This document shows, one piece after another, positions 1,451-11,830 of a stretch of DNA of 60,487 bases (positions are counted from its first letter, which is position 1; every line of letters begins with the position of its first letter). The position numbers and the translations under genes were made by a program. This stretch comes from a virus. Below the pieces are notes generated by a model, which saw only the letters and a program-made list of their open reading frames with translations, made no database searches and was not told the origin of the DNA. The stretch lies in IMG/VR virus record IMGVR_UViG_3300031766_000007, positions 1 to 60,487 of that record; one strand, 5' to 3'.

Positions 1451-3134
1451 TTTCTTTTTTCCTATTCTCTAATACAGAATAGTTTTGTCTTTTTTCAAAT
1501 CTAACTACAGATCTAAACTTGTCAAATAGTTGATCACCCTTGTGCGAGATTACAAAGACATTTGTATCTTCGCCTATTGTGTTCAACAATTCCATAACAT
1601 AGTCTGTACCATTAACATCTAAACTACTATCAAACACTTCATCTAATAATAAAATATTTGTACTAGCGCTGTTCTTCATCTTAGCAATAGTTCTCCATGT
1701 AAAAACTAATGCTAAATCTATTCTTTGTTTTTCACCTTCACTAAAAGATGCGTAACTAAATTTATCTCTGCCTCTACTCTTAATAGTTTCTTTAAATGTT
1801 TCGTCTAAATCAAACTGAACAAAGAAATCCATTGCTGCTAAATATTTGTTAACTAATTTATTTATTATAGGTAGATATGCTTTTATAATCTTTGTCTTGA
1901 TTCCGGTATCCTGTAACATAGACTTAGCAACATTAAAATAATGTTCGTTGTTGCTTAGTTCACTTCTACTTTCAACCTTTTTAAGTGTACTCTTTGCTAG
2001 AGTTTTAAGTTTTGTTTTCTCATCTTTAATGTTGCCTGTCTTGTGTTCTGTATCACTAAGTTCTAACTGTAGGCGCTGTTGTATTCTTTGTTGTGTAATG
2101 ACTTCATTGTTTGTTTCTATTATCTTTTCATCTAACTCTTGAACCTTTTGTACTAATACTTCTACCTCGCTATACTTCGTATTCAGTTCTTCTAGAGCTG
2201 TTTCAAGTTCAGAGATTTTTTGTTCATCTCTTTGTGTCATTAAATCTTTGTGATCGTGTTCTATGCCTTGCTGGCAAGTAGGACACTCTTCATTGTTGTG
2301 GAAGAACTCTAGTTCTTTTCTGTGGTTGGCAATTTGACTTTCGAACTTGCTTCTAAATTCTTCAAGTTTTCTTTTCTTTTCGCTAACAGGACCAACCTCC
2401 TGCTTCTCCTTCCCGAATCGCTGAGCTTCTTCAGTAGCCGTCTCGATCGCATTATCAGTCTCCTTAATGTCTTTTAAGATCTGTGTGACTTTAGATGATT
2501 TATCATCCTCCAATGTTTTTATATATGTTTCTTGAAGATTACACTTTTGTTTTGCAACATCTATCTCACCTTCTATAATTCTTTTATCGTTTTCTAATTG
2601 TGTAAGCTTGCCTTTAAGTACAGCATTCATGCTTGTAAAGATACTGATGTCTAATATATCCTCAATAATCTCTCGCCTAGCACCCAAGTGTAACTGCATG
2701 AAAGGTGTAAATGAGGCACTACCTAACATAACAATTTGTGTAAAAGACTTGTAATTAAGTTTTAGAATATTCTCTTCTAGATATTTTTGGAAGTCTCTTA
2801 TGTTAGCATTCTTATCTAACAAGTCTCCATTAATTGTAATATCAAATACTCTAGGTTGTAGTCCTCTCTTAATAGTATAGTTCTTTGTGCCTATACTAAA
2901 TGCTATTTCTACTAAACAATTCTTGCCATTAATAGTATTAATAAGTTGGGGCTTAGATACATTCCTAAAAGGTTTATTAAATAATGCAAATGTCAAAGCA
3001 TCTAATAATGTAGATTTACCTGAACCGTTCTCACCTATAATTAATGTACTAGGAGACTTTGTAAAATCAATCTCTGTATAAGCATTACCAGTCGACAGGA
3101 AATTTTTCCATTTAATATTTTTAAATTGTATCAT
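1437..3134 (-). CDS. 46: Recombination endonuclease subunit gp46 (SbcC/Rad50-like)
   Basis: ATPase subunit of the phage Mre11/Rad50-type complex that resects DNA ends for recombination-dependent replication. 565 residues, close to T4 gp46. Walker A GENGSGKS is at residues 34-41. A long coiled coil follows, interrupted by a zinc-hook motif CPTCQQG near residue 284. The ABC signature SFSEGEKQR is near 462 and Walker B LLLDEVFDSS near 495. The start overlaps the gp47 stop by 4 nt (ATGA), the usual gp47-gp46 coupling. All key ATPase motifs are intact, so it should be active. Confidence 0.96.
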   Translation of the reverse strand: MIQFKNIKWKNFLSTGNAYTEIDFTKSPSTLIIGENGSGKSTLLDALTFALFNKPFRNVSKPQLINTINGKNCLVEIAFSIGTKNYTIKRGLQPRVFDITINGDLLDKNANIRDFQKYLEENILKLNYKSFTQIVMLGSASFTPFMQLHLGARREIIEDILDISIFTSMNAVLKGKLTQLENDKRIIEGEIDVAKQKCNLQETYIKTLEDDKSSKVTQILKDIKETDNAIETATEEAQRFGKEKQEVGPVSEKKRKLEEFRSKFESQIANHRKELEFFHNNEECPTCQQGIEHDHKDLMTQRDEQKISELETALEELNTKYSEVEVLVQKVQELDEKIIETNNEVITQQRIQQRLQLELSDTEHKTGNIKDEKTKLKTLAKSTLKKVESRSELSNNEHYFNVAKSMLQDTGIKTKIIKAYLPIINKLVNKYLAAMDFFVQFDLDETFKETIKSRGRDKFSYASFSEGEKQRIDLALVFTWRTIAKMKNSASTNILLLDEVFDSSLDVNGTDYVMELLNTIGEDTNVFVISHKGDQLFDKFRSVVRFEKRQNYSVLENRKKENEIH

Positions 3135-4192
3135 ACTGTATCTTGTGCCTCGATGTATAGGCTCTGTAGTAAATTTTTAATTCGTTGTTTGTCTAAATCT
3201 GTTTCAACAACATCAACATATTCTTTTAGCAATGTCATTGTATCTTCTAGATCTATTTCCTCACCCAATGCCTCATCCTCAAACTCTGAGAAGTCTTCAA
3301 TAATTTTTAGATCAATTAGATTGCATGTGTATAATTTGTCTACAAAGACATCAAACTTTTTATAGTCTGTCTTTTTATTTACAATTAGTTTAACATTAGA
3401 ACCAACGACACTAGTAAAATCAAAATTGCTAATGGCATTGCTCCCCTCGAAATCTGAATCGTCGTAATAAATCTTGTGGAAGATTCTAAACGGGTTGTTG
3501 ATGTACTCCAAATCTCTTTTAACCGTGTCATATATGGCGAAACCTCTAGGGTCTTTATAGTCAGACCAAGTGATTTCATAAGGGTTGCCCATATATGTAA
3601 TATTCCCTCTGCTATGGCGATGATGGAAATGGCCACTGACCACAAGATCAAAGTCAACAAAAGCGTCAGTATCCATGCCATGGAGATTAGGCATTCCAGG
3701 AAGAAGGAAGTAACCTGCGAACTCGAAATGTCCGAAGCAAGTCTTTGCGTCAGATTCTTTAATTTTGGCCATAGTCCTGTCATAATTCTCACCACATATC
3801 CATGGAAGGTAAAGTACCTTCTCTCTATCTAACATTATTTCTGTTGGTTCCTGATATAATGTTATGTTGTTATATTCTCCTAACAATAAGTCAGGGCTGT
3901 TTACATCATTTGTATTTTTAAAATAGGTATCATGATTACCTGGAATCATGTGTATGTCTATACCTAAATCCTCTGCCTGTTTAAAGAAGTATCTTTTACA
4001 GGACTTCAATGTATTAAAATTTATATACTTTCGTCTATCAAATATGTCACCCAAGTGGCATACAGTTTTAATATCATGTTCTTTTAAATAAGGAAAGAAT
4101 GTTTCGTCATAAAACTTAGCAAAGTAAGCATCGAAAGCTAGACTATCACTTCTGGCACCAAAATGGGTGTCTGTAACTAGAGCTACTTTCAT
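3131..4192 (-). CDS. 47: Recombination endonuclease subunit gp47 (SbcD/Mre11-like)
   Basis: Nuclease partner of gp46. 353 residues with the calcineurin-type metallophosphoesterase motifs in order: D8-T-H10, GDIFDRR with D49, GNHD with N86/H87, then HFEF and GHFHHRH further on. Its stop overlaps the gp46 start. It begins 3 nt after the QueD stop, so gp46/47 are transcribed with the deazaguanine genes, presumably early in infection. No odd features. Confidence 0.95.
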   Translation of the reverse strand: MKVALVTDTHFGARSDSLAFDAYFAKFYDETFFPYLKEHDIKTVCHLGDIFDRRKYINFNTLKSCKRYFFKQAEDLGIDIHMIPGNHDTYFKNTNDVNSPDLLLGEYNNITLYQEPTEIMLDREKVLYLPWICGENYDRTMAKIKESDAKTCFGHFEFAGYFLLPGMPNLHGMDTDAFVDFDLVVSGHFHHRHSRGNITYMGNPYEITWSDYKDPRGFAIYDTVKRDLEYINNPFRIFHKIYYDDSDFEGSNAISNFDFTSVVGSNVKLIVNKKTDYKKFDVFVDKLYTCNLIDLKIIEDFSEFEDEALGEEIDLEDTMTLLKEYVDVVETDLDKQRIKNLLQSLYIEAQDTV

Positions 4193-4195
4193 AAG

Positions 4196-4651
4196 TTAGC
4201 CCTCGTATATAGCGCTGTTAGCCCCGTGTTCCCTAACTTCACATGAGACAGCATAACATCTGCCGTCTGTCAAGTTACTTACTAATTCATCTGCATAATG
4301 AAATGCTTGTTCTGCAAATTTCTCACAACCAACACCATTCATTACTACTACTTCTGACAATCCTTGTTCTTCTAGTTTAAGAAATGTTCCCATCTCAGGA
4401 TCGTCTTTTGCTACTGCATGTTTGTGATCAAAAGAATCTTTCAACCACTTTTTTAATTCCTTTAAGTTGCCAAAATCTACTACCCAATTCTTGTCGTCTA
4501 ATTTCTCACAACCAAACTTAAAACTAAAAGATAAAGCATATCCATGTAATAAACTGCAATGACTATGTAAGGCCAAGGGTTGTCTAAATACACATGATAA
4601 GCCTTCCTCATGTCCATATGTTTTTGTAGATAAATATTTAAATTTTCTCAT
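4196..4651 (-). CDS. queD: QueD-like 6-carboxytetrahydropterin synthase
   Basis: Second step from GTP to 7-deazaguanines: dihydroneopterin triphosphate to 6-carboxy-tetrahydropterin. 151 residues, T-fold (PTPS) family. A candidate zinc histidine in YGHEEGLSC (H14), the HSHCSLLHGYAL segment (C32, H36) and a C-terminal VSCEVREHG glutamate segment fit the phage QueD subfamily, where HGY replaces the usual HGH. Its start lies 14 nt inside the upstream GT gene, so the two are coupled. FolE, QueE and DpdA in the same operon support a role in DNA base modification rather than tRNA queuosine. Confidence 0.9.
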   Translation of the reverse strand: MRKFKYLSTKTYGHEEGLSCVFRQPLALHSHCSLLHGYALSFSFKFGCEKLDDKNWVVDFGNLKELKKWLKDSFDHKHAVAKDDPEMGTFLKLEEQGLSEVVVMNGVGCEKFAEQAFHYADELVSNLTDGRCYAVSCEVREHGANSAIYEG

Positions 4652-5711
4652 TCATTAACTCCTGATATATGTTTGTTGCCGAGAAGTATTGTGTCTTCAG
4701 CGTGTCTCTATTACTCTTAATTGCACCTTGTATTTCAGGTGAATTAAAATTTTCCATCATTGTTTCTATCTTGCCTAATAGAATACTTTTATTGTCTTGA
4801 TATCCTTTCCAGTCTTTTGTAAATTGCGTAGGGTACTTAAATATATCCTCATACATTTCTACATAAGATAGTCTATTAGGAACAAGAGGCATACCTCCTG
4901 CCATTAGTATTTCATAACAGCTAATGCCTAATGTTTCTTGTAAGTTTGCTGAGAATACCATCTTGGATTGTTCAAGTAACTGATTATATTCAACCTTAGT
5001 TAAATTATATTCGTTACAATTAATCCATTTATATTGTGGTAATTCTTTTTCTAAATCTTTAAATATACTTAGTTGTTTCTCAGGTGCATCTCTGTGAGGG
5101 AATAAAATAATATTGTCTTTTTCTATTCTACCTGCTTGTATGTAGTTACCTAAGTACTCCATAGGCCAGCCTGTTCTAACAATTTTACTATTAATATATT
5201 CTTCGTCTGAAGGATTAAAGAATGTACTAGCAAACATTTCTATATGAAAATTACTAGCAAAATAATTTTTATCTATAGCATCGAAGAAAGCTAATTCTGT
5301 ATGTCTAACCCAAGGTTTATTGCCTATCTTTCTACCTAAAAAATCTTGTGGATCATAACTGCCTGCATGCCATAGTGCATGTATTGTTGCATCTATCTGA
5401 AATAGATCTAACATATATTTAAGATTAATTATACCTGGATGCCAAGCGTCTGCAAAAACAAAGTGATCTCCATTCTTAATCTGATTATTATTAAAGTACT
5501 CTGCTAACAATTTTACTTGTTCTGCTTTATAAATGTTTGTGCCTGCAAAGTTTAAAAAAGCACCTGGTGTTGTGCATGCTGCTATTTCTTCTGGACCTTC
5601 AATAACTGTAATGTCTTGTCCAGTCTCATCTGCTATTTGCTGAGGGAATTCTGTTTTCCATTGGGCAGTATATCTAGTTTCTACATATTCTAAATCAACT
5701 AAATAAATCAT
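4638..5711 (-). CDS. GT-B type glycosyltransferase in the deazaguanine operon
   Basis: 357 residues. The C-terminal half carries a family-4-like donor-site signature, QETLGISCYEILMAGGMPLV (about residues 260-279), preceded by DNIILFPHRDAPEKQL, where the nucleotide-sugar domain of GT-B enzymes starts. The N-terminal half has no obvious membrane segment. The gene sits between two T-fold genes and overlaps both (17 and 14 nt), so it belongs to the same translation unit. Acceptor unknown: a modified base in phage DNA (compare T4 glucosyltransferases acting on hydroxymethylcytosine) is an inference from context; a glycan or protein acceptor is possible. Confidence 0.75.
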   Translation of the reverse strand: MIYLVDLEYVETRYTAQWKTEFPQQIADETGQDITVIEGPEEIAACTTPGAFLNFAGTNIYKAEQVKLLAEYFNNNQIKNGDHFVFADAWHPGIINLKYMLDLFQIDATIHALWHAGSYDPQDFLGRKIGNKPWVRHTELAFFDAIDKNYFASNFHIEMFASTFFNPSDEEYINSKIVRTGWPMEYLGNYIQAGRIEKDNIILFPHRDAPEKQLSIFKDLEKELPQYKWINCNEYNLTKVEYNQLLEQSKMVFSANLQETLGISCYEILMAGGMPLVPNRLSYVEMYEDIFKYPTQFTKDWKGYQDNKSILLGKIETMMENFNSPEIQGAIKSNRDTLKTQYFSATNIYQELMNEKI

Positions 5712-6090
5712 TTTCTATGATGCCTCCGTTTTCATTATCCTCAAATACTTCAACTCTAACAGCTCTGTTAGGATACTTCTCTTCTATATAATTTATAAGT
5801 GATTCGCCAATCATTTCACATGATTGGTGGTCTAGTTTAATTACACCTTGATCAAAAGTTCTTTCTAGTTCACGCTTAAATTGTATGAACTCTACATCAC
5901 GATCGTTATGTGTAACTCCTAATGTAATATAGAAATGGAACATGTGCCTATGAGGATATCCTAAGAAGCTAACATCATCCCAATCGCCTGTAGCATATTT
6001 AGGATTTGTATCTGCTCCAGGGAAGAAGTGTACTCCTTCTTTCTGAAAGCTTACTTTTATATAGCGTTTACGGTATGCCTTGTTAGCCAT
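5695..6090 (-). CDS. QueD/PTPS-like T-fold paralogue without an obvious catalytic cysteine
   Basis: 131 residues. KVSFQKEGVHFF near residue 13, the HRHMFHF histidine cluster near 48, FIQFKRELE, LDHQSCEMIGESLINYI near 88-104 and VRVEVFEDNENGG near the C-terminus follow the order of the PTPS/QueD fold (zinc histidines, substrate-glutamate region, C-terminal glutamate). The only cysteine lies in the DHQSCEM segment, not at the QueD nucleophile position. A strong Shine-Dalgarno (AGAGGAA) precedes the start at 6090, 33 nt inside the upstream gene. Similar small proteins occur in many phages but I know of no defined reaction. It may act on a deazaguanine or pterin intermediate. Confidence 0.6.
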   Translation of the reverse strand: MANKAYRKRYIKVSFQKEGVHFFPGADTNPKYATGDWDDVSFLGYPHRHMFHFYITLGVTHNDRDVEFIQFKRELERTFDQGVIKLDHQSCEMIGESLINYIEEKYPNRAVRVEVFEDNENGGIIENDLFS

Positions 6091-6623
6091 GTTGGTTCCT
6101 CTCTGTTTGTATATTTAGCAAAGTCAATTTTATATTTGTTGTAATACCTACGATAAGAGTTGACTACACTCTCACCTTTTACATCATCAGGCATTGCTAG
6201 TGGCAAGCCTTTTACATCTGCTGTATCAGCATGTGGAATATTCTTAGGTGCATACCTAAGTAAGTGTTCTAATTTTTCTTGTGTTAAGTGTAACCTACCA
6301 TACCTGTGAGTATATTCTTTACATAATTTAAACCATAGATCATATAGATAATCGTAATTGGCATTACTATTTCTAACCCACAAACCATCTGGATGGTTGA
6401 CATGACTGGCCTTGTATAAAGTAGACTCCATGTTAGAGTTTGGATGTCGCCACCTTTTAATTTTTCTACCTTTGTCTGTAAGCTCTCCATATAATTCTCC
6501 GTCTAAGTACCTATGTGCTGTAGACATAAGCTGTGCATATTCAATTACCATTTTAACAACATGTTTATCACAATGTTGTTCTGCACACAACAATGGATTT
6601 TCATTAAGTAAAAATATATTCAT
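6057..6623 (-). CDS. Conserved phage protein with HCDKHVVKM motif
   Basis: 188 residues of a family that is widespread in phages and has no established function that I know. The N-terminus NENPLLCAEQHCDKHVVKM with the following EYAQLMSTAHR is its hallmark, with several His/Cys residues that could bind metal. Later conserved-looking segments are KRWRHPNSNMES, KASHVNHPDGLWVR and LWFKLCKEYTHRYGRLH. It overlaps DpdA upstream by 4 nt and the T-fold gene downstream. The fixed placement among deazaguanine genes suggests, but does not show, a role in base modification. Confidence 0.8.
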   Translation of the reverse strand: MNIFLLNENPLLCAEQHCDKHVVKMVIEYAQLMSTAHRYLDGELYGELTDKGRKIKRWRHPNSNMESTLYKASHVNHPDGLWVRNSNANYDYLYDLWFKLCKEYTHRYGRLHLTQEKLEHLLRYAPKNIPHADTADVKGLPLAMPDDVKGESVVNSYRRYYNKYKIDFAKYTNREEPTWLTRHTVNAI

Positions 6624-7888
6624 TCAAATAAGTCCTCTAAACTACTAGGTGCTTCTGTGCCTACTGCCATTGATTTCATACTACCACCTAAGTACTGGTT
6701 ATTTTCCCAAGCATCAAACTGCTCACGATTAGTTACATTATAGAGGTTCCTGAACTGTCCGTCAAGTTTCATCTTACCCGTAAACTTCAATAAGGTTTCT
6801 TTGTCATTCATCATCTGTTCTAGATGCCCCATAAAGTTTCTAATGGACATAAGGATAAATGCTGTTCTAACATAGATCCATTTGTTTAAATTGCCATATT
6901 TCTCTTTTGCCTTCATGCTAGGTGTGTTCATAATGGTGTGAAATTCGTCTAATTCTACGCCTAATTGGATCGTTTCCTGCACATTATCGTACATTTCTCG
7001 ATACAAATTAGACATTTTTCTACTGAACTTAGTTGTGCCTTGTCCCATGTAGTATAAACCTGTCTCAACCGCCCTGCTATGTGTAGTAGAGTCATAAGAT
7101 ATTTCTACATTGTCATACAAACCGTTCTGACAAAAGACTAGATAAGGAATCATACGCCTAATACTACCTACTCCTAATACATGTAGGTGCATAGTTTCTT
7201 GTGGCCATACCTTAGCAATCTCACTAGCAATAAAGGCTCGTTTAACATCTTCAAGTGGACCTGTGCCTAGAGCTGCTGCTCCCATTGCTACACCACCAAT
7301 TCTATCATGCCATTCTGCAGGTACTTCCTCCATTAGAAGTTCATACCATCTAAGATATGTATCAACACAATTACCTTGTAGGATAATATAAGGTTTACAC
7401 TTACTATCATTCTTTTCAAATATTTCTAATTGTCGTTTAACATTTCTACCTGTCTTACGAGCTAGTTCTTCATAATTTTCAAAGTCAAAGAACCTAGCTT
7501 TTGTATCGTTTCTATCTGATCTATCTCCTGTAAGGACTACAGGTATCTCATCAAAGCACATACCTACATCAGCCCACTTTGCCTGGTTCTCATATACTTT
7601 ATCTTTTAATTCATCTGTAATAGTCATACCTTGAGTAACAATTTGTAGTCCACCTGAGTCTGCATGTATCTCATGTACATGATCCTTATATGCTGTAAAT
7701 CTATCTCCAAAGCTGGACTCTGTATGTCCGTTATATAACATACTAAATTTATGACTGTGAACATCTGTTACCAGCTTGTCTATAAGCACATTAATAATGC
7801 TTGAATTCGTTTCGTCTTTAGCTATACCTGGGTTACTAAACCTCATATAACTTGTGCCTGAAACTACATAATCTAATTTTCTACTCAT
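6620..7888 (-). CDS. dpdA: DpdA-type DNA 7-deazaguanine transglycosylase (TGT superfamily)
   Basis: Predicted to exchange guanine in DNA for a free 7-deazaguanine base. 422 residues. The TGT-type substrate motif DSGGLQ is at residues 77-82, FDEIP near 111, ILQGN near 168, GGVAMGAAALGTG near 198 and a second aspartate segment EISYDSTTHSRA near 265, where the TGT nucleophile is expected. The C-terminal zinc-site cysteines of bacterial tRNA TGT are not seen, as in phage DpdA. FolE, QueD and QueE in the same operon provide the base precursor. Overlaps of 4 nt on both sides show tight coupling. Confidence 0.88.
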   Translation of the reverse strand: MSRKLDYVVSGTSYMRFSNPGIAKDETNSSIINVLIDKLVTDVHSHKFSMLYNGHTESSFGDRFTAYKDHVHEIHADSGGLQIVTQGMTITDELKDKVYENQAKWADVGMCFDEIPVVLTGDRSDRNDTKARFFDFENYEELARKTGRNVKRQLEIFEKNDSKCKPYIILQGNCVDTYLRWYELLMEEVPAEWHDRIGGVAMGAAALGTGPLEDVKRAFIASEIAKVWPQETMHLHVLGVGSIRRMIPYLVFCQNGLYDNVEISYDSTTHSRAVETGLYYMGQGTTKFSRKMSNLYREMYDNVQETIQLGVELDEFHTIMNTPSMKAKEKYGNLNKWIYVRTAFILMSIRNFMGHLEQMMNDKETLLKFTGKMKLDGQFRNLYNVTNREQFDAWENNQYLGGSMKSMAVGTEAPSSLEDLFE

Positions 7889-8394
7889 GATTTTAATATC
7901 TCAATTAATACTTTCGCCTCTGCCGTAGCATCATCTAACGCATTGTGATTGTTTGCCTTAGGTAATCTTTTATCTAAGACATTCATTATTGTTCTTAAAC
8001 AAGAGATGTCCCAGAACTTCCAAGGGAAAGGCATGTTCAAGGCTCTATAAGCACTCTCTAATATTACTACATCAAAGTTAGCACCGTACCCCCAAATAGG
8101 AATAGACTCTTTGCCATACCATAATGTAAATTTATCAATTGCTTCTTGTAATGGAACAGGATTCTTTTGCCAAGCTTCTTGTGCCTCTTTACTTTGTTCG
8201 CCCCACCATTTTATTGTATCAGGTTCTATATGTAGTCCTGCTTCTTTACAAGTTCTACCATCAACATTAATATAAAATGTATCTGAGATTTCTAAGTTGT
8301 CAATAAGCACTGCACCAATAGAAACAATACATGCATCTGCATGTGTACTAAGTGTTTCTAAATCAACGACTACATGTTTACCATTAATATTCAT
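7885..8394 (-). CDS. DEDD-family 3'-5' exonuclease (DexA/RNase T-like)
   Basis: 169 residues. ExoI motif VVVDLETLST (D11, E13) at the N-terminus, an ExoII-like WGYGANFDVVILESA in the middle and a C-terminal ExoIII segment NHNALDDATAEA give the DEDDh exonuclease plan. The protein is close in layout to T4 DexA, although shorter. It overlaps FolE by 1 nt upstream and DpdA by 4 nt downstream. Likely trims ssDNA or RNA; the substrate is not shown by the sequence. All four acidic positions appear present, so it is probably active. Confidence 0.85.
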   Translation of the reverse strand: MNINGKHVVVDLETLSTHADACIVSIGAVLIDNLEISDTFYINVDGRTCKEAGLHIEPDTIKWWGEQSKEAQEAWQKNPVPLQEAIDKFTLWYGKESIPIWGYGANFDVVILESAYRALNMPFPWKFWDISCLRTIMNVLDKRLPKANNHNALDDATAEAKVLIEILKS

Positions 8395-9074
8395 TATCTT
8401 GGTGCAAACTCTTGTTGTAATTTAATGTTATCGAAAAATTCTTTCTTCAAGTCTGAATTTTTAAATCCGCCTCTTAATACAGTTGTCTGTGTTAAGGAAC
8501 TATGTGCCTTAATGCCTCTGTTCTCACAACAACCATGCGTTGCTTGTACATAAACACCTACATGTTCAGCGCCTGTATGTTCTTGTATCTTATTAGCGAT
8601 CATAACATTAAGTTCTTCTTGTAATGTACCACGCATAGCACACCATTGTGCAATCCTTGTGTACTTACTTAGACCTAATAGTTTATCTCCTGCAATAAGT
8701 CCTATGTATGCTGTGCCTCGAACTGCTTGGTGATGATGAGAACATACACTTTTCAATTCACTTCTCACAACCAACATACCTTCATAACCATCTTCTACAT
8801 AGTTAGGAAAACTGTTAGGGTCTGGCATTTTATTATATCTACCTGACATAATTTCGTTTATATACATTTTTGCCATACGCCTACCAGTGTCTATACTGTT
8901 AGGGTCGCCTTCTACATCTATTACTAATGACTTTAGAACATCATGGAACTTGCCAGCCAATTCATCAATCAATTTATCTTTATCGCCTGGCTCTAGAACA
9001 TCTGATATATTATCAGACGCATGGAATCTTTGTCCTGTTTCTAGTAACCTAGCTTTTATCTCTTCACTAATCAT
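8394..9074 (-). CDS. folE: GTP cyclohydrolase I (FolE)
   Basis: First step of pterin and 7-deazaguanine synthesis: GTP to 7,8-dihydroneopterin triphosphate. 226 residues, usual family size. The zinc site is SVCSHHHQ (C111, H114) with the second cysteine in ATHGCCENRG (C182/C183). LLGLSKYTRI near 132 and TLQEELNVMIA near 150 match the FolE core. The usual CEHH is CSHH here. With QueD and QueE in the same operon it supplies precursor for DNA base modification rather than folate. The stop-start overlap with the exonuclease is 1 nt. Confidence 0.95.
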   Translation of the reverse strand: MISEEIKARLLETGQRFHASDNISDVLEPGDKDKLIDELAGKFHDVLKSLVIDVEGDPNSIDTGRRMAKMYINEIMSGRYNKMPDPNSFPNYVEDGYEGMLVVRSELKSVCSHHHQAVRGTAYIGLIAGDKLLGLSKYTRIAQWCAMRGTLQEELNVMIANKIQEHTGAEHVGVYVQATHGCCENRGIKAHSSLTQTTVLRGGFKNSDLKKEFFDNIKLQQEFAPR

Positions 9075-9092
9075 TTTGTCTCCTGTATGAGA

Positions 9093-9518
9093 TTATGTTT
9101 CCCAAGGGTAAACTATCCATCTTTTGTCGTTATTATGCAGTCTTTCGCCTACAAAGTCAAGCTCTATGTCTGCTTTTTGGTGTAATACAGCCCACCTGCT
9201 GTTTGGAATAATTTCCTTGATCTGTTTTATTGTTAAGGCACTATCACATATATCATCAACAAAAATAGTGCCCTTTAAATTTTTGTTGAATCCGTTAGCT
9301 TTAATCTTATCTTGAAACTCACCATCTCTAGTTTGCCATTCAAGTGGTTCAAAGCCAGCGCCTAGCCAATGTGAAAGCATAACACCAGGTATTAATCCAC
9401 CTCTTGATATGCCTACCACTTTGTCTATATCTTGTTTTCCTAACTCTTTAAATAATTTAAAGACTAATTCATTAACATCTTCCCACGATATATAAAGTTT
9501 TGTTGCGTCACCTGTCAT
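9093..9518 (-). CDS. Phosphoribosyltransferase-family protein
   Basis: 141 residues from an ATG at 9518 that overlaps the upstream stop (ATGA); a longer frame to 9608 would bury the upstream gene and is not chosen. A type I PRTase core is visible: KVVGISRGGLIPGVML, then the PRPP-binding loop GTIFVDDICDSALTI with the DDxxDSxxT pattern. The hood resembles xanthine/hypoxanthine PRTases. It lies between QueE and FolE. It may salvage guanine released by DpdA or handle a deazapurine base; both are inferences from context. Confidence 0.85.
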   Translation of the reverse strand: MTGDATKLYISWEDVNELVFKLFKELGKQDIDKVVGISRGGLIPGVMLSHWLGAGFEPLEWQTRDGEFQDKIKANGFNKNLKGTIFVDDICDSALTIKQIKEIIPNSRWAVLHQKADIELDFVGERLHNNDKRWIVYPWET

Positions 9519-9727
9519 AGTTTTACCGCCAATAAAAATAGTATTAACAGTTGAATAATAACTACTAGAAATAATTCTACTGCTAGGATTGTATGGTACC
9601 AAATCCATCTTGTTTTGTAAGCATTATCTATTGTTACATCATCTGGATCTGGATCTTTCCAAGTATCAATTTCTTGCTGAGGATTTTGTCCCCATAATGT
9701 TTCTTTAATTTGTTTCCATTTCATCAT
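9515..9727 (-). CDS. Small single-pass membrane protein
   Basis: 70 residues from the ATG at 9727, which overlaps the QueE stop. The N-terminal half is hydrophilic (KWKQIKETLWGQNPQ, then DPDPDDVTIDNAYKTRW). The C-terminal half is one long hydrophobic helix with IWYHTILAVELFLVV and a second hydrophobic run ending LLAVKL. Coupled at both ends (ATGATG to QueE, ATGA to the PRTase). No recognised family. Confidence 0.65.
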   Translation of the reverse strand: MMKWKQIKETLWGQNPQQEIDTWKDPDPDDVTIDNAYKTRWIWYHTILAVELFLVVIIQLLILFLLAVKL

Positions 9728-10602
9728 GTACCCCAAGCGTTGCCAAATAAATCGATATGTAATCGAGGGCTAAACTTGTATCCTGTTTTCATACAAGCCT
9801 CTGCTACGCCTTTAGCAGTTAGTGTTTGTTGTTCTAGTGTAGCGCCTTCTGGCATACAGTAAACAGCATCTATTTGTACGCCACTTTTCTGATAAGTTAG
9901 ATAAAACTTATCAACTTCTTCGAAGTCTGTTATGTCTCTAACGACAAATTTATTATACAAGTGAGAATTAACAACCTGGTTCATTGTAACAAGTGCGTCA
10001 GGTATTAAAGCATCTTCATTCTTCTCACCACTAAGACTTAACTTAGGAGATGTACTCCAAGTTACATGTATACCCTTATAATTTTCATTAAAGAAGTTTG
10101 CTAGTTCAGGTTTAATTAATTGTGTTCCATTAGTTTCAAATGTTACATTAGTCAAACCTACTTCCATACACATTTTAATTAATTCAGGCCATACTCTTTG
10201 CCAACCGAGTAAAGGTTCTCCACCTGTAATAACCAAATGTATATCATTCTTCTCATCAAATCTTCCATTAGGTAAAAGACTTATAATGTGTTCATATACC
10301 TCATCAACAGTCTTAGTCATTTGTAAATGTTTATATTTCATAGCCCAAGAAGCAGAACTATCACAACCTACAGGCGTGACAGGCAGTTCTGAAATATCTT
10401 TATAAGCTTCTGGGTGATTTTTATCGCCTTTAGGATCTGTCATATAAGGCATTTGGTCTGTAGCAATATACTTGCCACGCTCTTGTCCGAAACCAGCGCA
10501 TTCAAAGTTACAGCCAAAGACTCTTAAGAATACACTAGGTACTCCTACAAATCTACCTTCGCCTTGTATGCTATAAAATGCTTCGCTGTATCTCAGTTTC
10601 AT
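9724..10602 (-). CDS. queE: QueE-like 7-carboxy-7-deazaguanine synthase (radical SAM)
   Basis: Converts 6-carboxy-tetrahydropterin to 7-carboxy-7-deazaguanine (CDG). 292 residues. The N-terminus SEAFYSIQGEGRFVGVPSVF is the QueE hallmark. The Fe-S cysteines are in FGCNFECAGFG (C30 and C34) and, after a long insertion, VGCDSSASW, the QueE-type spaced cluster. VITGGEPLLGW near 125 is the SAM-binding GGE motif and FETNGT follows. First gene of the operon, about 10 nt downstream of a sigma70-like promoter. Its Fe-S need may link to the phage IscU/IscA pair. Confidence 0.93.
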   Translation of the reverse strand: MKLRYSEAFYSIQGEGRFVGVPSVFLRVFGCNFECAGFGQERGKYIATDQMPYMTDPKGDKNHPEAYKDISELPVTPVGCDSSASWAMKYKHLQMTKTVDEVYEHIISLLPNGRFDEKNDIHLVITGGEPLLGWQRVWPELIKMCMEVGLTNVTFETNGTQLIKPELANFFNENYKGIHVTWSTSPKLSLSGEKNEDALIPDALVTMNQVVNSHLYNKFVVRDITDFEEVDKFYLTYQKSGVQIDAVYCMPEGATLEQQTLTAKGVAEACMKTGYKFSPRLHIDLFGNAWGT

Positions 10603-10654: not shown

Positions 10655-10677
10655 TTTGGTTGACCTTTTCAACCAAA
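10655..10677. repeat. Inverted repeat upstream of the queE promoter
   Basis: A 9-bp perfect stem, TTTGGTTGA and TCAACCAAA, with loop CCTTT. It covers the stop codon of the methyltransferase-fold gene and lies about 15 bp upstream of the -35 box. There is no U-tract on either side, so an intrinsic terminator is unlikely; an operator or RNA 3'-end stabiliser is possible. Confidence 0.55.
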
Positions 10678-11238
10678 TAATGCTATCCCCTTTGTTCCCT
10701 TGTTAAATTCAAATAGTTTAAAGTTTAAACCAGATGTATCTATTGCTGTCATAGTCTCTGGATGAACCGTATCATAACAATCAATAACCATTGTTTGTAC
10801 TTTGTCCTGCCAATAATTAATTGCTGTTGTTACAGATTGTTCTGAATGATTAGCATCATACCATAGTACTGTATACTCCTCTGCCAATTCAAAATCTTCT
10901 GTAAAGTGTTTCTTTTCGTATGTTATATTCCAGCCCTTTGTATTCTCTATAAACTGTTGTTCTTGTTCTTCAGCAGTACACATTAAACTATCCAGAAATG
11001 TTTTTAATTCTTCATTCATTACTGAAGCTCTACCTGTATTACCTATACCTACAAATACTTCAACACAATGTATAGTATAATCCTTACCTGCCTTTTCAAA
11101 TGCTTCAGCCCAAGATACCGCAGACTTGCCTACATAAGAACCTATTTCTATAAGTTTACCTTTGTCAGGAAGTTCAGCAACAATGTCTGTAAAGTCCCAC
11201 TCATAAAATCCTTTTATATCTTTACTAGCTTTTCGCAT
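10669..11238 (-). CDS. SAM methyltransferase-fold protein downstream of gp55
   Basis: 189 residues from the ATG at 11238. This start is chosen over the upstream one at 11283 because AGAGGAAG precedes it at good spacing. Motif I appears as KLIEIGSYVGKSAVSWAEAF, followed by TIHCVEVF and VLWYDANHSEQSV, with the acidic residues expected for SAM binding and a class I Rossmann fold. Its start lies 14 nt inside gp55. The N-terminus is close to KDIKGFYEWDF. Substrate unknown; it resembles the protein at 797-1450 in plan only. Confidence 0.65.
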   Translation of the reverse strand: MRKASKDIKGFYEWDFTDIVAELPDKGKLIEIGSYVGKSAVSWAEAFEKAGKDYTIHCVEVFVGIGNTGRASVMNEELKTFLDSLMCTAEEQEQQFIENTKGWNITYEKKHFTEDFELAEEYTVLWYDANHSEQSVTTAINYWQDKVQTMVIDCYDTVHPETMTAIDTSGLNFKLFEFNKGTKGIALFG

Positions 11239-11830
11239 CTTCCTCTGCCTTAGCTGCTGCTTCCTCTGCCTTAATTTTTTCATCTAAGTATTTAGGTCTA
11301 CGCTTAGGCATCTTTTTACCTGCGTTAGCTGCGTCAGCTTTAGCATTATCTGCCTCTGCTTGCTCAATCATGCCTCTCATATAACTTAGGTAATCATTAG
11401 AGTGTTCACTTCCGTCTGCGCTTTGTTCTAAGATTTGATCTATATCTAAGCTCTTAATATATTTGAACTTAGTTTCCATTTGTCTTTTTTCTTTTTGGAT
11501 ACGCCTAATGAAAGCGTAGTATGTGATTTGTGTAAAGTATGCAAAAGGATTTTTAGATTTTGCTGGATCAAAGTTATCCATATATGTAAGACAGTTTTCA
11601 ATACCATCTAAAATCATTTCATCTCTAAATGTATAGTTTACAAAGTTAGATTTATATGCTAAATGATTTGCTATTTTAACAAAGCACTCGCCTATATAAT
11701 TTGTTACTTGTGGTCTTTCATCTCCACTCTCTTCTGCTTCAATTCTTTCCTCTCGGTAAGCACTAATCTTTACAAGGAACTCCTTGTTGTCTATATAGTG
11801 TGCCGAGTTAGGGTCACGTCTTTTTGCCAT
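11225..11830 (-). CDS. 55: Late-transcription sigma factor gp55
   Basis: Directs host RNA polymerase to TATAAATA late promoters. 201 residues (T4 gp55 is 185). A region-2-like core is visible: NYTFRDEMILDGIENCLTYM near 72-91, then NFDPAKSKNPFAYFTQITYYAFIRRIQKEKR near 92-122, the sigma-family helix that contacts the -10 element. The C-terminus is a lysine/alanine/glutamate-rich tail (KIKAEEAAAKAEEDAKS) without the hydrophobic clamp-binding end known for T4 gp55. It lies 9 nt after the Sm-like gene. Eight late boxes in this window fit its presence. Confidence 0.92.
   Translation of the reverse strand: MAKRRDPNSAHYIDNKEFLVKISAYREERIEAEESGDERPQVTNYIGECFVKIANHLAYKSNFVNYTFRDEMILDGIENCLTYMDNFDPAKSKNPFAYFTQITYYAFIRRIQKEKRQMETKFKYIKSLDIDQILEQSADGSEHSNDYLSYMRGMIEQAEADNAKADAANAGKKMPKRRPKYLDEKIKAEEAAAKAEEDAKS

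Follow-up and report, generated by a model that had tools for sequence, protein, structure and literature searches.

The virus record IMGVR_UViG_3300031766_000007 (60,487 nucleotides, analyzed over its whole length and called the window below) carries on its minus strand, from 4196 to 10602, a deazaguanine operon in which a glycosyltransferase (GT) lies next to a T-fold paralogue of QueD. We conclude that the GT is part of the deazaguanine pathway. This conclusion is strongly supported, because the GT co-occurs with the pathway, its motif and structural model are intact, and the pairing is kept in other gene orders, with another DpdA family and in bacteria. The best reading, with a probability of about 0.7, is that DpdA inserts a 7-deazaguanine in the phage DNA and that the GT glycosylates it. 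An earlier, sequence-only reading had suggested that the GT may glycosylate the deazaguanine base. Its placement of the enzyme in the pathway is borne out by strong linkage, whereas the sugar on 7-deazaguanine in DNA is still something that we infer. The gene content, the enzyme families, the predicted folds, the conserved motifs and the linkage of the GT to DpdA and to the paralogue are direct observations.

Co-Occurrence of the GT with the Deazaguanine Pathway in Viruses

Scans with GT and T-fold profiles, each represented by the best 80 of its relatives (595 and 567, respectively), gave 171 distinct viral contigs, among which duplicates were sorted by hand. The GT scored at least 300 bits in 141 contigs and less than 300 bits in 20, and it was absent from 10; the last two groups were tallied apart. 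Relatives of the window were among the loci used to train the profiles, which were also iterated, so that the scores of the training members are inflated. At least one of FolE, QueE, QueD and DpdA was detected in all 141 GT contigs. The T-fold paralogue was found in 137, DpdA of either type in 123, FolE in 112, the phosphoribosyltransferase (PRTase) in 100, QueE in 92 and QueD in 44. The GT and the T-fold gene were separated by 300 bp or less in 123 of the 137 contigs, as measured between stop-to-stop frames.

When only the 98 GT contigs with at least 4.5 kb upstream were counted, T-fold was present in 98 and DpdA in 97. For the 48 contigs that have 7.5 kb or more on each side, the numbers were 48 for T-fold, 47 for DpdA, 46 each for FolE and QueE, 42 for PRTase and 15 for QueD. 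The 104 contigs that were fetched by the GT were also tallied separately: T-fold was detected in 100 and DpdA in 89, and both were detected in all 73 contigs that have 4.5 kb before the GT.

In a phage collection of 50,697 records, T-fold was found in 26. A full-length GT occurs in 15 GenBank records from four lineages (Phosso, 11 Pseudomonas phages, ACP17 twice and X1), and all 15 possess both T-fold and DpdA. DpdA is of the DpdA2 type in the two ACP17 records and X1, and of the other type (540 aa) in the 11 Pseudomonas phages and in Phosso; in Phosso it is located about 170 kb away. The sequence-only reading would have been contradicted by a GT found mostly in phages that lack dpdA; the survey found the reverse.

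Gene Order and Variants of the Cluster

The gene order in the window is DpdA-PyrEx-Tfold-GT-QueD. Elsewhere the orders are DpdA-GT-Tfold (PAC2 and ACP17), GT-DpdA-Tfold (X1) and DpdA-Tfold-GT (BUCT-ZZ01), and a fourth, GT-Tfold-DpdA, was also found among the loci. Since the order differs between lineages, the linkage of GT, DpdA and T-fold is not just inherited synteny. For the same reason, the position of the GT between the two T-fold genes, to which the sequence-only reading had given weight, is not what matters; the tight partner of the GT is the QueD paralogue. In a quick tree of 52 GTs (FastTree, midpoint root, topology only), the GTs partnered with DpdA2 are spread over several places: the window clade is placed among GTs partnered with the ~524-aa family (DpdAj), and ACP17, X1 and BUCT-ZZ01 branch elsewhere.

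Among the ten contigs without a GT match, three carry DpdAj and extend for only 0.1-1.7 kb beyond the T-fold gene, and seven carry a third family of ~290 aa. This family was also detected in five GenBank phages that possess T-fold but no GT (RHph_I1_18, Bakedbeans, Ahp1_CNU-2021, D479 and Cellulophaga phiST). It lies mostly 1 to 2 kb from the T-fold gene (7 kb in Bakedbeans; the L199 copy is a fragment at a contig end), and in RHph_I1_18 it is fused to a DUF3310 domain. DpdA-like motifs (DNSAFE, HFLGM and SWDSSSAVW) were recognized by eye, and the profile match is weak (E 2e-3). This family is possibly the DpdA3 of Cui et al. Because T-fold occurs by DpdA-like genes without a GT, it seems that DpdA-like enzymes generally have T-fold as a partner and that the GT elaborates on this pairing.

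In L162, L171, L173, L174, L176, L179, L183, L191, L197, L136 and L138, the GT relatives downstream of T-fold are all distant (72-96 bits). At this fixed place, one sugar enzyme seems to be swapped for another. In the Synechococcus cyanophage BUCT-ZZ01, which has the gene set of the window with a divergent GT after T-fold, a second GT-like gene (L046:7370-8710, 447 aa; Pfam Glyco_trans_1_4 at 3e-5, just under the cut-off) is located between FolE and DpdA. The base of this phage possibly bears a two-sugar decoration.

Family, Fold and Motif of the GT

The window GT matches Pfam Glycos_transf_1 with E 0.013 and 15.5 bits (cut-off 26.4), and this model matches 8 of 50 GT family members at E 0.01 or below. 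Since the score is under the cut-off, we speak of a likeness to GT4 and do not claim membership in CAZy GT4. PHROG and NCBIfam gave no match. The AlphaFold 2 (AF2) model, computed from an alignment of the window GT and 49 relatives, has a mean predicted local distance difference test score (pLDDT) of 89.5 and shows the two Rossmann domains of a GT-B fold. By VIA, it was aligned to the GT-B enzyme 6kih over 318 residues (Z 24.5, root mean square deviation 3.2) and gave Z 23.5 with MshA and 23.4 with BshA. The best Foldseek value was 8e-9, and the neighbours were the GT-B enzymes BshA, PglA, MshA and sucrose-phosphate synthase.

Such enzymes, of the retaining kind, combine an EX7E motif with an Arg and a Lys that serve the nucleotide diphosphate. 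The window GT possesses this set: R207, K212, E259 and E267 are invariant in 50 aligned rows. In a 15-row alignment, some rows of which start one codon later than annotated, Asp substitutes for E259 and for E267, each in one divergent row. Because of the GT-B model and these invariant residues, the GT is very probably an active glycosyltransferase that uses a nucleotide sugar.

The nearest GTs in public phages are those of the Sinorhizobium phage Phosso (44%) and the PA5oct group (37-38%). The Pfam models of the T4 alpha- and beta-glucosyltransferases matched neither the window GT (at E 0.1) nor the 50 members (at E 0.01). The N-terminal domain of the queuosine glycosyltransferase QTMAN likewise gave no Pfam match in the window GT or the 50 members, a result that leaves distant homology aside. 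GT and T-fold profiles gave chance-level matches only against the sequences of solved structures, and NCBIfam has no name for GT, T-fold or DpdA. Matches to Rsbr_N on 11 of the 50 GT rows (best 1.2e-5) were taken as spurious.

The T-Fold Paralogue Is Probably Not a QueD

The AF2 model of the T-fold paralogue (pLDDT 94.2) has the PTPS/QueD fold; its best Foldseek neighbours are PTPS 2dj6 (3.6e-5) and QueD 4ntk (6.5e-5). Across 35 rows, H21, H47, H49, S90-C91-E92 and E117 do not vary. QueD works with a catalytic Cys, an Asp-His dyad and an anchor Glu. When three paralogues were aligned with six QueD/PTPS proteins, the catalytic Cys and the dyad His were missing in all three, and the Asp was aligned in two. 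The His-x-His (H47 and H49) and the last glutamate (E117) are retained. In contrast, C32, D99-H100 and E141 of the QueD at 4196-4651 align with the other QueD rows, and its HGH position reads HGY.

The idea that the paralogue is simply a second QueD was rejected, since the catalytic Cys and the dyad His are missing. A ring of the pterin or guanine kind is the expected ligand; the paralogue probably catalyzes a reaction different from that of QueD and probably acts on deazaguanine or its precursor. As a guess, it may correspond to DpdL of Cui et al. 2023, which is reportedly proposed to be a carboxy-deazaguanine decarboxylase. The Vibrio phage Bakedbeans has its T-fold within a larger protein, gp176 (L043:9191-10369), of which it forms the C-terminal part.

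One GT Family Is Partnered with Two DpdA Families

The window DpdA has no Pfam match. It shares 33% identity over 292 aa (E 1e-50) with YP_008125322 of Vibrio phage nt-1, which Hutinet et al. 2019 name DpdA2 (PMC6884629). The search also returned Vibrio phage 6E35.1a, which we take to be 6E351A in another spelling. A modified base is reported in the DNA of nt-1 and 6E351A (PMC12028318), and in the latter dPreQ1 amounted to 15% of deoxyguanosine (dG) by mass spectrometry.

A profile of the window-type DpdA had indicated that jumbo phages with the GT have no DpdA. This was rejected, as neighbour clustering gave the DpdA-related DpdAj family, which replaces DpdA2 in most jumbo-phage loci (90 proteins, 89 of 106 clustered loci). 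None of four members tested exceeded any Pfam cut-off, and neither of two tested matched PHROGs. In a single hhalign profile-profile comparison, DpdAj was aligned with DpdA2 over 240 columns (E 6e-6, probability 85%). The motifs DSGGFQI, D-IP, LQG, AMGG, HFLGTS and SFDCAS are co-linear in both. Thus, one GT family partners two DpdA families that are related by profile comparison.

A 182-aa family (L108:387-917) was observed in 90 of the 106 jumbo-phage loci, mostly between the large DpdA-like gene and T-fold, and also in ACP17 (E 6e-25). One member tested had neither a Pfam nor a PHROG match.

Bacterial Loci

A GT scan of a bacterial and archaeal species collection gave 19 loci, with a DpdA-like match in 17 and a T-fold match in 13 (that of L216 is weak and 8 kb off). 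Four loci, L202-L205, resemble phage contigs binned into metagenome-assembled genomes: L202-L204 carry FolE and QueE, and L205 carries FolE. The GT lies beside a DpdA-like gene in five Magnetospirillum loci (L206-L210) and in seven other alphaproteobacterial loci (L212-L217 and L219, from Azospirillum, a Rhizobiales isolate, Devosia, Methylobacterium, Shimia, Aurantimonas and Sulfitobacter). No FolE or QueE match was detected in the stretches examined around these twelve loci. A PTPS-family gene lies downstream in Magnetospirillum aberrantis.

In all seven non-Magnetospirillum loci, a Vut_1-type membrane protein adjoins the GT or is one gene off. Of the five examined with Pfam Vut_1, four scored 24.7-31.9 bits (cut-off 27.2; two over and two just under), and L215 was unmatched. 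Those of L217 and L219 were matched only by our own Vut profile. Four of the seven loci that this profile recognizes were its training set, and it had no match in 199 viral and phage loci. We take Vut_1 to be the YhhQ family. YhhQ carries preQ0, as stated in PMC6884629. These loci suggest that bacteria may use the same core too.

A protein of the phage integrase family was confirmed in L207, and proteins with a similar start were seen by eye in L212, L213, L216 and L217; we read the alphaproteobacterial loci as mobile. Full-length QueC matches were obtained in the genomes G005-G010 and G012, and short ones only in G011 and G013-G015. The loci are rare, because among 385 genomes drawn from the class of Magnetospirillum the GT was found in one, the query genome itself. 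Defence-like genes were observed within a few kb of the GT in L216 (2387-5636, ABC-3C CTD6 with an AAA ATPase) and L207 (3241-4800, HEPN_LA2681).

What the Base May Be

A QueC-like protein was found in four of nine virus records searched (G001, G400, G402 and G405), about 50 kb from the deazaguanine cluster. It was not found in G000, G401, G403, G404 and G406, which are mostly fragments and include the window. The GT of G400 is 100% identical to that of the window. The protein of G001 (L201:1015-1698) has 227 aa; an SGGFDS motif and a cluster of Cys residues were recognized in it by eye. It scores 36 bits with Pfam QueC (cut-off 22) and 34.5 bits with NCBIfam QueC (under the cut-off of 150). 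A window lineage without QueC was therefore rejected, as these near relatives encode the QueC-like protein. A weak QueC match in X1 proved to be NAD synthase.

In some phages the base may remain carboxy-deazaguanine, and in the lineage of the window it may be an amide, a nitrile or another form. The sugar could be attached to the carboxylate, to C7 itself or to a group that the T-fold or QueC-like protein creates. If the QueD paralogue were a decarboxylase that gives an unsubstituted base, the electron-rich C7 would be the handle, and the bond would be C-glycosidic (carbon-carbon). That the GT4-like enzyme puts the sugar directly on the 7-position, with the same module at work in T4-like and jumbo phages and in mobile Alphaproteobacteria loci, where an imported precursor might take the place of synthesis, is a long shot. 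Its odds are slightly lowered by the QueC-like protein of near relatives of the window.

PF00303, which we take to be the family of hydroxymethyl-pyrimidine synthases, had no match in ACP17, X1, BUCT-ZZ01, the window fragment, G001 or G002. Matches do occur in Phosso, PAC2, G003 and G004, possibly to a plain thymidylate synthase. Because ACP17, X1 and BUCT-ZZ01 lack a match, glycosylation of hydroxymethylcytosine is unlikely in these phages, and a T4-like glycosylation was rejected as a general explanation.

Proposed Pathway and Alternative Explanations

In the pathway that we propose, FolE, QueD and QueE would produce 7-carboxy-7-deazaguanine, which may be converted further by the QueC-like protein that near relatives encode at another place, and the QueD paralogue would add one extra step. 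DpdA2 would then swap guanine in the phage DNA for the deazaguanine base, and the PRTase may recycle the released guanine. The GT4-like enzyme would transfer a sugar onto the deazaguanine, most likely after its insertion into DNA, and the glycosylated 7-deazaguanine would shield the DNA from host nucleases. We infer every reaction, as well as the sugar, the acceptor atom, DNA as the acceptor and the shielding.

Several observations weigh against this pathway. Since Phosso, PAC2, ACP17 and BUCT-ZZ01 have no match to the QueC family, the genes that they encode themselves lead no further than carboxy-deazaguanine, a base on which no hydroxyl is obvious as the site for a sugar. L165 has no DpdA match and is the exception among the full-length loci. 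DpdA2 occurs without a GT in some phages (Vibrio and Stenotrophomonas), and T-fold occurs without a GT in phages having the third DpdA-like family (of 11 GenBank records that have T-fold and no full-length GT match, 6 were viewed); thus, neither DpdA nor T-fold requires the GT. Three bacterial genomes (G009-G011) possess the GT and a DpdA-like gene with no T-fold match anywhere. Four records (PhiXhv-12, -15, -16 and Ep032) carry a partial GT relative, 25% identical, with no T-fold or DpdA match, and hence the wider GT family has other uses. With a GT profile built without BUCT-ZZ01 and PhiXhv-12, the GTs of these two phages are equally far from the family (96 bits each), although the divergent GT of BUCT-ZZ01 sits in a deazaguanine cluster. 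Finally, the GT contigs come from many related phages, so that the counts overstate independence, and conservation in the region extends to other replication genes. The persistence of the linkage across lineages is therefore the stronger argument.

The GT might instead glycosylate the free deazaguanine base or a precursor, and DpdA would then install an already glycosylated base. We consider this unlikely. The GT does adjoin small-molecule enzymes as well as DpdA, and its structural neighbours BshA and MshA act on small acceptors; however, the pockets of two very different DpdA families would need to admit a sugar-bearing base, and known phage DNA glucosyltransferases act after replication (PMC13216743). 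It is also quite improbable that the GT acts elsewhere, on a hydroxymethyl-pyrimidine or on host surface sugars, and is merely carried along in the region. The GT clusters of jumbo cyanophages are thought, in PMC7824862, to make surface polysaccharide, and the distant relative in PhiXhv-12 adjoins genes annotated as glutamine-fructose-6-phosphate aminotransferase and GlcNAc-malate deacetylase, with no deazaguanine gene in 25 kb. Such a role does not agree with the co-occurrence in 73/73 contigs and 15/15 records, with a GT proximity that survives rearrangements, with the core shared by bacterial loci, or with the distribution of PF00303 given above.

A pathway that modifies tRNA rather than DNA, in which the GT makes a glycosylated queuosine-like tRNA base, is very improbable. 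Glycosylated queuosine occurs in animal tRNA, and all 11 bacterial genomes with a GT locus retain a tRNA guanine transglycosylase (TGT). In contrast, the transglycosylase of the window is of the DpdA2 type, the phages nt-1 and 6E351A with a matching DpdA are reported to have the modified base in DNA (PMC12028318), and profile scans of the ten operon proteins turned up no queuosine-finishing gene. The insertion of a 7-deazaguanine by DpdA followed by its glycosylation in DNA stays our preferred explanation.

Source Record and Organization of the Operon

To judge by its UvsW, which is nearest to those of marine T4-like phages (Methylophilales phage Melnitz group, 56%; Prochlorococcus phage P-HM1, 53%), the source record is a fragment of a T4-like phage. 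All ten ORFs (open reading frames) of the sequence-only reading were found again (Table 1). The overlaps that it described hold for adjacent genes (1 to 34 nt, or 94 nt for the short peptide and PRTase when the longest PRTase start is taken), except for PRTase and FolE, which are 18 nt apart. The packing of the genes suggests a single transcription unit. The run goes on after 3 nt into gp47 (3131-4192) and then gp46.

Table 1. Positions in the window of the ten operon genes, and loci of the ~290-aa family
Feature	Position	Strand	Evidence
QueE-like radical SAM (S-adenosylmethionine) enzyme (7-carboxy-7-deazaguanine synthase)	9724..10602	-	phrog_2076 1.7e-52
Short peptide, one hydrophobic stretch (by eye)	9515..9736	-	ORF; recurs in close relatives
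Purine-type PRTase	9093..9608	-	phrog_8995; Pfam Pribosyltran 1.6e-5, just under cut-off
FolE, GTP cyclohydrolase I	8394..9074	-	Pfam 1.5e-35
DEDD 3'-5' exonuclease, Rv2179c-like	7885..8394	-	Pfam 5.4e-40
DpdA2-type DNA guanine transglycosylase	6620..7888	-	phrog_10773 (function not assigned); homology to nt-1 DpdA2
Pyr_excise-like (HCDKHVVKM) protein	6057..6623	-	phrog_624; Pfam Pyr_excise 3e-4, just under cut-off
QueD paralogue (T-fold)	5695..6090	-	phrog_17812 (function not assigned); predicted structure; residue comparison
GT-B, GT4-like glycosyltransferase (GT)	4638..5711	-	predicted fold; conserved motif residues
QueD (6-carboxytetrahydropterin synthase)	4196..4651	-	Pfam PTPS 1.8e-13; phrog_2389 2e-37
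~290-aa family	L042:12071-13336, L043:17045-18022, L044:10450-11319, L045:10698-11552, L047:10798-11574, L192:9360-10226		
~290-aa family, further loci	L161, L170, L177, L186, L190, L199		

The QueE ORF matches the NCBIfam QueE models at about 1e-10, under their cut-offs, and the PRTase matches the NCBIfam xanthine PRTase at 3e-13, also under the cut-off. The short peptide had no match in Pfam, PHROG or NCBIfam, and none of the ten proteins was matched by PADLOC. The PRTase may recycle the guanine that DpdA releases; such recycling would fit a heavy base exchange. Two methyltransferase-like ORFs (797-1450 and 10669-11283, translation read by eye) flank the region.

Comparison with Known Systems

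Hydroxymethyl-pyrimidines are known to bear sugars in phage DNA. A glycosylated deazapurine would, if true, be a new kind of decorated purine and a new DNA mark. It would also provide a context for the unnamed family phrog_17812, which recurs with the GT in jumbo phages, and would bear on the escape of Pseudomonas phages of the PA5oct/Paride group from DNA-targeting defences. As cultured phages carry the GT, the question is open to mass spectrometry. Among the papers listed from the open-licence literature, titles and abstract openings contained no glycosylated deazaguanine in DNA, and an earlier mention may exist elsewhere.

The window shares FolE, QueD, QueE and a homologous DpdA2 with the phage FolE-QueD-QueE-QueC-DpdA system of Hutinet et al. 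2019 (PMC6884629). The counterpart of its QueC is the QueC-like protein that the near relatives encode away from the cluster. To this system the window adds the QueD paralogue and the GT; no word beginning with "glycosyl" occurs in the main text of PMC6884629. For the jumbo phage PA5oct, one of the 15 full-length GT records, a system of deazaguanine synthesis and incorporation was predicted in 2021, and the passages available of that article discuss GTs for surface polysaccharide, with no link to deazaguanine (PMC7824862). The term "deaza" is absent from the main texts on MIJ3, Callisto and Paride, and MIJ3 is named in a sentence on unusual features including hypermodified DNA in a 2026 review (PMC13282480). 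The Vibrio phages nt-1 and 6E351A have a DpdA homologous to that of the window, and their clusters have QueC, plus QueF in 6E351A (PMC12028318). Among the 19 GT records of the phage collection, none is from a Vibrio phage.

The T4 alpha- and beta-glucosyltransferases are likewise phage enzymes that act on a modified base. Their acceptor is hydroxymethylcytosine, whereas the window GT is nearest in fold to BshA, MshA and sucrose-phosphate synthase. The bacterial dpd islands of Thiaville et al. 2016 are said to put deazaguanine in DNA. In contrast to those islands, the loci described here combine the GT with a DpdA-like gene and a Vut_1-type protein, or with T-fold, a DpdA-like gene and PTPS. 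Cui et al. 2023 (NAR 51:9214) reportedly describe a tailoring of deazaguanine in phages by DpdL, DpdM and DpdN, along with DpdA3; we know of no glycosyltransferase among these enzymes. The tRNA-queuosine mannosyltransferase QTMAN places a sugar on a 7-deazaguanine derivative, as the window GT would; QTMAN, however, acts on tRNA.

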